64,000 nt of DNA from contig NZ_KK069988.1 of assembly GCF_000576425.1 (NCBI RefSeq), positions 539,976-603,975 of the forward strand, given 5' to 3'. The DNA comes from Brachybacterium phenoliresistens (GTDB lineage Bacteria; Actinomycetota; Actinomycetes; Actinomycetales; Dermabacteraceae). Position 1 is the first letter of the stretch, and each line of letters opens with the position of its first letter. Shown here piece by piece: positions 20,347-51,936 of this stretch. The notes beneath the pieces are model-generated. The model did not search any database and was not told the origin of the DNA. It was given only the letters and a program-made list of their open reading frames with translations. The translations under genes and the position numbers were made by a program.

Positions 20347-20450
20347 GCATGGCGGGCCGATGGGCCCCGGGAGGCCCTCCCGGCGTGTGGTCAGCGCCTC
20401 ACCGAGGTCAGGGATCTCTGCTCGTCGGCGGCGCCGGAGGGTGTGCCCTC
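20347..20450. other. spacer between acnA promoter and repeat tract
   Basis: GC-rich spacer. It includes GGGCCCCGGGAGGCCCTCCCGG-like self-complementary stretches near 20363-20385, and I see no gene in it. Confidence 0.3.
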
Positions 20451-20590
20451 CGTCCCGCTGAGGTCCGCTCCGTCCCGCTCGGGCCCGCTCCATTTCGCTC
20501 TGGCCCGCTCGGGCCCGCTCCGTTTCGCTCTGGCCCGCTCGGGCCCGCTCCGTGTCGCTCAGGCCCGCTCGGGCTCGCTCAGTCCCGCTC
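20451..20590. repeat. 14 tandem 10-bp repeats (NNNYCCGCTC) over the 3' end of the RNA methyltransferase gene
   Basis: Fourteen consecutive decamers share CCGCTC or CGCTC at the right. The middle part is a higher-order 30-bp unit (GGGCCCGCTC, then C-GTTTCGCTC-like, then TGGCCCGCTC) repeated about three times. The tract covers the last 12 bases of the minus-strand methyltransferase gene and 128 bases beyond its stop. On the minus strand it reads GAGCGGGNNN. Confidence 0.85.
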
Positions 20591-48032: not shown

Positions 48033-48227
48033 ACCGAGACGATCCCGGATCCCGCGCTGCCCCGCGGGCCCGGGGCCGGCTCTGTGGACAACCGGCCCGT
48101 GCCGGCTGCTGCGCGGCCGATGGGGAGGAGGAGCGACCCGCGCCCCGGCCGCTCGGCCCCGCGGCGGCCGATGCTCCCGCCGCGGCGTGGGAGGATCGAG
48201 CGCGTCCGATCTCCGAAGGAGCCCTGC
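48033..48227. other. divergent intergenic region
   Basis: 195 bases between the DUF4192 gene and the polyprenyl synthase gene. No clear -10 box; AAGGAG lies seven bases before the synthase ATG. Confidence 0.3.
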
Positions 48228-49334
48228 ATGCCCGACCACCCCGAGGTCCTGTCCGAGCGCGCCGTCGCCGCGGTGCGCGAGCAGCTGCGCGCCCACCTCG
48301 ACCGGCAGCGCCAGGTGATGGCCGCCGTCGCGCCGGAGGTCCTGCGCATGGACGAGGATCTCGAGGCCTACCTCGGGGGCGGCAAGATGCTGCGTCCCCT
48401 GTTCTGCTACTGGGGCGGGGTCGCCGTCCACGGGGCGGAGCTCTCGGACGGCGCCGCGGCCGACCTCGCCCGCGCCGGCGCCGCCATCGAGCTGGTCCAG
48501 GCCGCGGCGCTGCTGCACGACGACGTGATCGACCATTCGCCCACCCGCCGCGGCCGGCCCGCCGCGCACATGGCCGCCGCCGCCCGCCACCGCGCCGATG
48601 CGCTCTCCGGCAGCTCCGAGGACTTCGGCGAGGCCTTCGCGATCATCCTGGGCGACCTCGCCCTGGCCTGGTCCGAGCAGCTCTTCTCCGAGATCGACCG
48701 GGATCACGCCGTCGCCGGGCGGGAGGAGTTCGACCTGCTGCGCACCGAGGTCATGGGCGGGCAGTACCTGGACGTCCTCCACCAGGCCGGGGGGTTCGCC
48801 TCGGCGGGCACCCCGGAGGAGGCGGCGATGGCCGTGATCCGGTGGAAGACCGTCCCCTACACCGTCCTGCGACCGCTGCGCATGGGGGCCGCGCTGATGG
48901 GGGCGAGCACGCCGCAGCTCGACCTGCTGGAGCGCTGGGCCGTCGCCATCGGCACCGCGTTCCAGCTGCGGGACGACCTGCTCAGCGTGGTCGGGGACCC
49001 GCAGCGGACGGGAAAGCCCGTGGGCGGCGACATCGTCGAGGGGAAGCGCACGGTCGTCCTCGCCCGGGCGCTCGAGGCCGCCGATGCGGGCCAGCGCGCG
49101 GCGCTGGAGGCCGCGCTCGGCGATCCGTCCGCGGATCCCGAGGCGATCGCCGCGGCCCATGCGGTGCTGGTGGGCACCGGAGCCGTGGACAGCGTGCGGG
49201 CGGACGTGGAGCGCCTGGCCCGGGAGGCGGCGGCGCTGATGGACGCGGACGACCTGCTCCGCCCGCTGGGCCGCGCAGGGCTCGGCGCCCTCGCGGACGC
49301 GGCCACCGACCTGTCGGTGCTGCGGCCCTCCTGA
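48228..49334 (+). CDS. polyprenyl diphosphate synthase (IspA/IdsA type)
   Basis: All-trans prenyl chain elongation for quinone or lipid carriers. 368 residues. First Asp-rich motif LLHDDVIDHS (DDxxD), second FQLRDDLLSVVGD, Lys/Arg of GGGKMLRP and the K-T motif RWKTVPYT. Ala/Leu-rich helices throughout. Equivalent of idsA2 (Rv2173) by position. Chain length of the product cannot be told with certainty. The stop codon lies in the 47-bp tandem duplication. Confidence 0.92.
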   Translation: MPDHPEVLSERAVAAVREQLRAHLDRQRQVMAAVAPEVLRMDEDLEAYLGGGKMLRPLFCYWGGVAVHGAELSDGAAADLARAGAAIELVQAAALLHDDVIDHSPTRRGRPAAHMAAAARHRADALSGSSEDFGEAFAIILGDLALAWSEQLFSEIDRDHAVAGREEFDLLRTEVMGGQYLDVLHQAGGFASAGTPEEAAMAVIRWKTVPYTVLRPLRMGAALMGASTPQLDLLERWAVAIGTAFQLRDDLLSVVGDPQRTGKPVGGDIVEGKRTVVLARALEAADAGQRAALEAALGDPSADPEAIAAAHAVLVGTGAVDSVRADVERLAREAAALMDADDLLRPLGRAGLGALADAATDLSVLRPS

Positions 49335-49417
49335 GACGGAGCGCCCAGGTCAGAAGGCGAGCGCCTGGGCGGCCCTCCTGAGGCGGAGCGCCCAGGTCAG
49401 AAGGCGAGCGCCTGGGC
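49324..49417. repeat. 47-bp tandem duplication across the convergent gene ends
   Basis: Copies 49324-49370 and 49371-49417 differ at one base (GAGACGG versus GAGGCGG). Each copy holds the end and TGA of the synthase gene on the plus strand and the end of the DNA-binding protein gene on the minus strand. Each also forms a hairpin CGCCCAGG / CCTGGGC(G), so the shared terminator is doubled. Confidence 0.9.
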
Positions 49418-49750
49418 CCGTCGGCGCACCTCGCCGCGCTGCCCGCGGCGCAGATGGTCGATGGGGCGGCCGGGGAGCGTCTCGTCCTCGGTGAAGAGCC
49501 AGGCGAGGATCTCCTCGTCGGCGAAGCCGCCGTCGCGCAGGACGGTGATGGTCCCGGCCAGGTGCGGGGCGATCTCCCCGTCGACGATCAGCTCCGCGGG
49601 GACGGAGCGGACCACGGGATCGCCGCGGCGGATCGAGATGAGCTGGCCCTCGTCGATCAGACGGCGGACCTTGGAGACCTCCACGCCGAGCTTCTCGGCG
49701 GCATCGGGCAGGTTCAGCCACGCGGGGATGAGGGAGTCGAGAGCGTTCAC
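49397..49750 (-). CDS. Rv2175c-like DNA-binding protein
   Basis: 117-residue winged-helix DNA-binding protein. The N-terminal HTH reads LPDAAEKLGVEVSKVRRLIDEGQLIS; the C-terminal part has the family's PVVRSVPAELI, LAGTITVLRDGGFADEEILAWLFT and ends in AQALAF. In mycobacteria the homologue is phosphorylated by the neighbouring kinase PknL; that kinase gene lies just upstream here, divergently. GTG at 49750 or ATG at 49768 are both possible starts. The gene end falls in the tandem duplication. Confidence 0.9.
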   Translation of the reverse strand: MNALDSLIPAWLNLPDAAEKLGVEVSKVRRLIDEGQLISIRRGDPVVRSVPAELIVDGEIAPHLAGTITVLRDGGFADEEILAWLFTEDETLPGRPIDHLRRGQRGEVRRRAQALAF

Positions 49751-49860
49751 CGCACCAGGGTGCCACATCCGGCGGCGTCCCCGGGGCCCGGAGGTGGGGG
49801 GCTTGTGAGGGAAACGTGCGCGCCGCTGTGTCGCACGGGGATCCTCGCCGCGCACGGACC

Positions 49861-49866
49861 TACAGT
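49861..49866 (+). promoter_or_regulatory. pknL -10 box (leaderless)
   Basis: TACAGT, six bases before the GTG at 49873; no Shine-Dalgarno in between. Confidence 0.6.
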
Positions 49867-49872
49867 GGCAGC

Positions 49873-51936
49873 GTGAGCGCTCAGCCGACGACCTCTCCCG
49901 ACACCGGGATGCTGCTCGACGGCCGCTACCGGGTCGGGGAGCTCGTCGCCCGGGGCGGGATGGCCTCCGTGCATCGGGGGCACGACCAGCGACTGGACCG
50001 CAGCGTCGCCCTCAAGATCATGCATCCCCACCTCGCGGTGGACGAGGAGTTCCGCCGCCGGTTCGCCCGGGAGGCGCGCAGCGTCGCCCGTCTCGCCCAC
50101 CGTCACGTGGTCGGCGTGTTCGACCAGGGCGAGGACGGAGACCGCATCTACCTGGCCATGGAGCTGGTCGAGGGCGGGACGCTGCGCAACCGCATCTCCC
50201 GGCAGGGCCAGCTGACGGTCCGGGACGCGCTCGAGGTGACCGGGGCGGTGCTGGAGGCGCTCTCGGCCGCCCACCGCGCCGGCATCGTGCACCGGGACAT
50301 CAAGCCGGAGAACATCCTCCTGTCCGACGACGGCCAGGTGAAGGTCGCCGATTTCGGGCTCGCCCGGCTGATCGGCACGGCCGCGTCCTCGGCGACCGGG
50401 ACCCTGCTGGGCACGGTCGCCTACGTCAGCCCCGAGGTCGTCACGCGCGGGGTCAGCGACGAGCGCAGCGACCTCTACTCCCTGGGCGTGGTGCTCTACG
50501 AGATGCTCGTGGGCACGCAGCCCTACACCGGCGAGGCGGCGGTGCACATCGCCTTCCAGCACGTGCACGAGGACATCCCCGCCCCCTCGCTGCGGGCTCC
50601 GCACGTCCCCCAGGGCGTGGACTCCCTGGTCACCTGGTGCTGCGCGCGCACCCCCTCCTCGCGTCCGGCGAGCGCCGAGGAGGCGCTGGAGAGCGTGCGG
50701 GACCTCCTGCGCACCGTCCCCGACAGCGTGCTGGACGCGGCACCGCTCACCGCCGAGCGGGTGCACACCCAGGACCTGCCGCACCTGACCGCGAGCCTGG
50801 ACGAGGTCGACCTCGCCCAGGACGGCGCCGTGCGCTCCTTCCCGGAGGGGCTCGCCGCCCGGGCGCAGCGGTCGCTGGGCGACGCAGAGCCCGGCGCGGA
50901 CGGCGAGGCCGCGGCCGGCGCCCCCGCGGGCCGGGATCCCGACGGGCCGGACGACGCGGATCTGGGCGCCGTGGACCTGCACGTCCCGCTCCCCCGCGTC
51001 CCCGACGGCCGCCATCTCGCCGTGCCGCGGCGCGGCCCCTCGCCGGCGGTGCGCATCCTCGGGCTCGCCGCGGTCCTGGCCCTGCTGGCCGGGGCGGGCC
51101 TCGCCGGATGGCGCTGGTACGCGACGGCGGGCCCCGGCGGCGACCGCGTCGTCCCCGTGCTCCAGGGGGAGCAGCTCGCGGACGCCGAGGCGGAGCTCGC
51201 CTCGCGGGACCTCGGCACGCGGACCCAGGAGCAGTTCAGCGACTCGGTCCCGGCCGGGGAGATCATCTCCGCCTCCCCCGAGCCCGGCGCCGTCATCAAG
51301 CGCGACACCCCGGTGACGATCATCGTGTCCACCGGGCCGCAGACCTTCGCCGTGCCCGACGTCACCGGCCAGGACCTGGAGACCGCCACCGCCGCCCTCG
51401 AGGACGCGGGGTTCGTCCTCGCGCAGGGCGAGCCCGCCTACTCCGAGGACGTCCCCGAGGGCTCGGTGATCTCCCAGTCCACCCCGGGCGATGCCGAGGC
51501 CCTGCCCGCCGGGGGCGTCGTCACCGTCGTCCTCTCGCAGGGCCGCGAACCGATCCCGGTCGCCGACCAGCGCGGCAAGGGCTACGACACCGCGACCGCA
51601 CAGCTCGAGGACGCCGGCCTGCAGGTGACCACCAGCTGGGCGTTCTCCGCGACCGTGCCGCGCGGTGCGATCATCTCCCAGGATCCCGTGGGCGGCACGC
51701 TGCATCGCGGGGACACCGTCTCGCTGGTGATCTCGAAGGGGCAGGAGCTGGTCACGGTCCCCGCGGTGACGGGGAGCACGGAGGCCGAGGCCCGTGCCGC
51801 CCTGGAGGCGGCGGGCCTGCAGGTGGTGGTGAGCAAGCCCGCCGGCACCCCCGCCACGGCCCTCGTGTCCGCGCAGTCCGAGGTCGAGGGGACCCGGCTG
51901 GCCAAGGGCTCGACCGTCACCATCACGCTCCCCTGA
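49873..51936 (+). CDS. pknL: PASTA-domain Ser/Thr protein kinase PknL
   Basis: 687 residues. Kinase domain 18-280 with Lys48 (VALKIM), HRD Asp142 (HRDIKPEN), DFG Asp160, and the activation loop GTVAYVSPE. About 110 linker residues, one membrane helix (about 393-412), then four extracytoplasmic PASTA domains that bind peptidoglycan fragments or lipid II in related kinases. The GTG at 49873 fits the leaderless pattern. Its likely targets include the divergent DNA-binding protein. Rv2176 has a similar length and position. Confidence 0.95.
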   Translation: MSAQPTTSPDTGMLLDGRYRVGELVARGGMASVHRGHDQRLDRSVALKIMHPHLAVDEEFRRRFAREARSVARLAHRHVVGVFDQGEDGDRIYLAMELVEGGTLRNRISRQGQLTVRDALEVTGAVLEALSAAHRAGIVHRDIKPENILLSDDGQVKVADFGLARLIGTAASSATGTLLGTVAYVSPEVVTRGVSDERSDLYSLGVVLYEMLVGTQPYTGEAAVHIAFQHVHEDIPAPSLRAPHVPQGVDSLVTWCCARTPSSRPASAEEALESVRDLLRTVPDSVLDAAPLTAERVHTQDLPHLTASLDEVDLAQDGAVRSFPEGLAARAQRSLGDAEPGADGEAAAGAPAGRDPDGPDDADLGAVDLHVPLPRVPDGRHLAVPRRGPSPAVRILGLAAVLALLAGAGLAGWRWYATAGPGGDRVVPVLQGEQLADAEAELASRDLGTRTQEQFSDSVPAGEIISASPEPGAVIKRDTPVTIIVSTGPQTFAVPDVTGQDLETATAALEDAGFVLAQGEPAYSEDVPEGSVISQSTPGDAEALPAGGVVTVVLSQGREPIPVADQRGKGYDTATAQLEDAGLQVTTSWAFSATVPRGAIISQDPVGGTLHRGDTVSLVISKGQELVTVPAVTGSTEAEARAALEAAGLQVVVSKPAGTPATALVSAQSEVEGTRLAKGSTVTITLP

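Follow-up and report, generated by a model that had tools for sequence, protein, structure and literature searches.

A 47-nt tandem duplication across the stop codons of two convergent genes in Brachybacterium phenoliresistens

We analysed a stretch of 64,000 nucleotides of the Brachybacterium phenoliresistens genome (hereafter the window), in which a polyprenyl synthase gene and an Rv2175c-like gene converge on a short tandem duplication containing the stop codons of both. The features at this junction are:

48228-49334, plus strand: polyprenyl (isoprenyl diphosphate) synthase gene; Pfam PF00348, E=1.4e-45 on 48252-49331; start picked by eye within a longer ORF
49322-49368, no strand assigned: copy 1 of the 47-nt tandem duplication; repeat search and Tandem Repeats Finder
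49342-49371, no strand assigned: weak hairpin of copy 1, 9-bp stem CGCCCAGGT / GCCTGGGCG; RNA folding
49369-49415, no strand assigned: copy 2 of the 47-nt tandem duplication; repeat search and Tandem Repeats Finder
49390-49417: equivalent hairpin of copy 2, 8-bp stem; folding
49397-49750, minus strand: Rv2175c-like DNA-binding protein gene; Pfam PF18367, E=2.1e-27, and PF21531, E=1.6e-12; GTG start read from the sequence and ORF list

Among NCBIfam models, the polyprenyl synthase most resembled that of the mycobacterial farnesyl/geranyl diphosphate synthase, although its 252.7 bits lie under the cut-off of 600. Adjoining the Rv2175c-like gene, at 49816-51936 of the window, is a serine/threonine kinase with PASTA-like repeats (recognised by eye from the translation), an arrangement like that in Mycobacterium tuberculosis, where pknL neighbours Rv2175c.

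A repeat search of the window found two head-to-tail copies of 47 nt, at 49322-49368 and 49369-49415, with one mismatch. Tandem Repeats Finder reported 49322-49417 (period 47, 97% matches, score 185), so that both finders agree with the initial annotation, which had described a 47-bp duplication with a single differing base. The coordinates given there, 49324-49417, correspond to the same duplication with its register shifted by 2 nt, an equivalent description because the same GC dinucleotide stands at 49322-49323, 49369-49370 and 49416-49417. The copies are adjacent and near-identical, as in short tandem duplications of the slippage type, and differ solely by an A at 49336 (copy 1) that is a G at 49383 (copy 2). 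With 1 base in 47 differing, it is plausible that the duplication is recent; copy-to-copy homogenisation may be an alternative source of such similarity. We aligned six relatives to establish the polarity of the mismatch, in alignments that were heavily gapped: the closest one (L003) carries A like copy 1, L006 carries G like copy 2, and the other four are gapped or non-informative at this base.

A search of the whole genome for the 47-nt unit, allowing up to 3 mismatches, returned two matches only, both at 49322-49415. This bears on the idea that two insertions of a mobile or dispersed REP- or MITE-like palindromic element produced the copies. Such an element would account for the palindrome within the unit but would call for further copies in the genome, and there are none within 3 mismatches. 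Moreover, the unit consists mostly of the host genes' own ends. We hence rejected such a multiple-copy element, whose involvement is barely credible. The doubling of one genomic copy by the assembler is also highly improbable. The assembly is indeed a draft of 35 contigs, but the site is internal to a contig of 674,563 bases and the one-base difference between copies lowers the likelihood of a simple assembly duplication. Together the copies span 94 nt, less than a usual sequencing read, which would also count against an artefact.

The stop in use for the plus-strand gene is the TGA at 49332-49334, within copy 1, and that of the minus-strand gene is the TCA at 49397-49399, within copy 2. Each copy also bears an unused counterpart of the other copy's working stop. 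It had been proposed from the letters and ORFs that each copy holds the last codons and the stop of both genes, that both proteins are intact, and that the second copy of each gene end acts as spacer. All of this is borne out: the plus-strand gene ends in copy 1, the minus-strand gene in copy 2, both frames are whole, and the stops lie 62 nt apart, compared to 15 nt if a single copy were present. A role for the spare stops as backups was ruled out, because the copy offset (47 = 3 x 15 + 2) is not divisible by 3 and places them out of frame. In case of read-through, the next in-frame stop for the plus-strand gene begins 471 nt on with the duplication and 492 nt on with a single copy; for the minus-strand gene the distances are 537 and 2481 nt, respectively, and this shortening is a by-product of the frame change.

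Tandem duplications are frequent in this genome. In a survey of 464 kb out of 4.19 Mb (400 kb of contig C1 and the 64-kb window; units of 18-250 nt, at least 90% identity), 25 were found, 22 in C1 and 3 in the window. Order-3 Markov controls yielded 0, 1 and 0 for the 400 kb, and 0, 0 and 0 for three versions of the window (unit of at least 18 nt, at least 90% identity), placing the 47-nt duplication well beyond chance. When genes were called with a rough home-made procedure, 12 of the 25 fell within genes and the other 13 at their edges or in between. Only two units reach 40 nt, one of 57 nt and the one described here; the duplication is therefore a common kind of event in this genome, though among the longest. 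Tandem repeats (unit of at least 12 nt, at least 90%) occur in 7 of 51 convergent junctions with gaps below 600 nt, a count that includes 49322-49415 and has no shuffled control. Among these seven, the repeat at 49322-49415 alone reaches both stops.

Several other repeats were observed in the course of this survey. A 22-nt unit at G000:C1:279972-280015 (the L105/L106 boundary), 91% identical and more diverged, duplicates the final codons of another gene along with its TGA stop. A possible variable-number repeat, with about 4.6 copies of a 29-nt unit, extends from G000:C1:130307 between convergent genes inside L098. In the window, 20448-20590 holds an array of related 10-, 20- and 30-nt units, mostly outside genes (rough gene call), within which a 30-mer reaches 3.8 copies at 20466-20580.

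We sought the same junction in relatives, using collections with one genome per species. The Rv2175c-like gene is present in 37 of 38 genomes of the genus, including that of B. phenoliresistens itself; the genome without a match is 74% complete. In all 36 other genus genomes holding the gene, it converges with the polyprenyl synthase. Stop-to-stop gaps range from 10 to 120 nt in the 35 genus relatives measured (L009 was omitted, the script having found no plus-strand stop). A search for tandem units (12-150 nt, 85% identity or above) in a region of up to 330 nt surrounding each junction found none longer than 15 nt in any of the 36; three carry short units near the junction, of 14 nt (L007), 12 nt (L008) and 15 nt (L032). 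The pair is also convergent in nine further genomes of the family, with gaps of -19 to 88 nt (negative values being overlaps), and a search of their junctions yielded no tandem units (12-120 nt, 90% or above). One of these nine is locus L049, whose genes overlap slightly and which was classed as 'other' under the stricter rule of the genus scan.

The relatives are thus single-copy for the 47-nt unit across 36 genus and 9 family genomes. Since no unit longer than 15 nt was found in them, the duplication represents an insertion specific to this lineage, in a gap whose length varies between genomes. The length of the junction is free to vary, and of the genomes examined only that of B. phenoliresistens has the 47-nt duplication. 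The closest relative shows 82% identity in the Rv2175c-like protein, and it is from relatives at or below this identity that we infer a single-copy ancestral state within the species. Beyond the family (L051-L088), short units are found at L063 and L071 (12 nt each) and at L082 (15 nt, 87%). Another genus also has a repeat at this junction: in Pseudoglutamicibacter cumminsii, a 24-nt unit is perfectly repeated in tandem a few bases past the Rv2175c-like stop (L083:1850-1897).

The initial annotation also placed a hairpin in each copy. On the plus strand such stems do form, of 9 bp in copy 1 and of 8 bp with outer pairs in copy 2, but they are weak for this genome and unconserved in relatives. 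Taken singly, copy 1 has RNA fold z-scores of -1.36 (plus strand) and -1.52 (minus strand) and copy 2 of -1.72 and 0.02, respectively; for the whole 111 nt they are 0.07 (plus) and -0.29 (minus). With DNA parameters the single unit folds at -8.5 kcal/mol, and copy 2 plus flank at -12.4. GCCCAGG, the left arm, lies no more than 40 nt from the stop in one of the 36 relatives (L033), and 12 of the 36 have some other stem of 6-8 nt that pairs the final codons with the 30 nt that follow. No known RNA family reached the gathering threshold in 48200-50000. In G000:C1:1-400000 and the window, convergent junctions have stronger hairpins than coding controls (rough gene calls).

These data allow us to weigh a selective explanation, in which a two-way transcription terminator was doubled, and serial hairpins or a new hairpin at the junction cut read-through between the genes. 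A further hairpin does arise across the copy junction through the duplication, and the best 49-nt DNA fold of the junction goes from -10.1 kcal/mol in the single-copy form to -13.9 when doubled. The other convergent junctions reach a mean of -20.6 (n=39) versus -13.6 in coding controls. However, the single unit is matched or beaten in stability by 57% of 3000 random genome windows, and of the 17 other junctions with gaps of up to 70 nt (mean of all 17, -15.4, versus -12.1 in coding controls), 13 have a stronger fold than even the doubled form. The z-scores of the six stretches span only -1.72 to 0.07. No T-tract terminator was found in 48200-50200, the locus lacking the stable G+C-rich hairpin followed by a run of T that defines an intrinsic terminator. 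A conserved terminator was ruled out on the missing T-tract, the weak folds and the left arm being found in a single relative. Overall, there is no good evidence that the hairpin is under selection, though the duplication gives a somewhat stronger fold, and we regard a selected doubling of a terminator as very unlikely.

We consider it very probable that a single, lineage-specific short tandem duplication arose by strand slippage during DNA synthesis at this convergent junction, and that it was neutral or nearly so. The ancestor would likely have carried one copy, with the two stops 15 nt apart. Having copied the unit once, the growing strand could have re-paired upstream through the GC common to both ends of the unit, which lies in a wider imperfect match (CTGCGGCCC / CTGGGCCC), and would then have copied the 47 nt a second time. 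Hairpin formation by the nascent strand where it looped out may have assisted, though the hairpin is not strong. The unit spans both gene ends, so each gene would retain one complete end while the spare ones turn into spacer, making the event approximately neutral. The direct repeat at the unit ends, apart from the wider imperfect match, is 2 nt long, as often expected by chance; such microhomology is little, and other template-switch or end-joining routes would also fit. The length of the unit also speaks against slippage, 47 nt being long for a genome in which 2 of 25 units reach 40 nt. The sequences show the duplication, with both reading frames intact, and its absence from the examined relatives; mechanism, neutrality and age are what we infer.

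The duplication shows no sign of function and looks like an ordinary copying slip. It matters little alone, yet it is a clean case of a gap being lengthened while both proteins are spared, and it might be of use for telling strains of the species apart. A broader conjecture, which we think unlikely, is that, where convergent genes lie close together in actinobacteria, short tandem duplications across both stops serve as a recurrent, non-disruptive source of spacer between their ends, later reshaped into terminators, and that 49322-49415 would be a fresh example caught before decay.

Like bidirectional intrinsic terminators, the duplication lies between convergent genes and has a palindrome in each copy. 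Unlike them, its hairpin is weak, unconserved and without a T-tract, and the copy-2 hairpin has one arm inside the Rv2175c-like coding sequence. A survey of prokaryotic genomes reports that most of them contain close direct repeats at normal or slightly raised frequency, and describes repeat patterns shorter than the 47-nt unit found here (PMC4060949). A thin literature search, covering titles and the openings of abstracts, found no mention of duplications across convergent stop codons. Short tandem duplications are known products of replication slippage or microhomology, and the event at 49322-49415 resembles them: its copies are adjacent and near-identical, and it is lineage-specific and sits at a tolerant site; the minimal repeat at the ends of its unit may be a further resemblance. 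It departs from them in that its unit spans both stops of a convergent pair, so that both genes survive.
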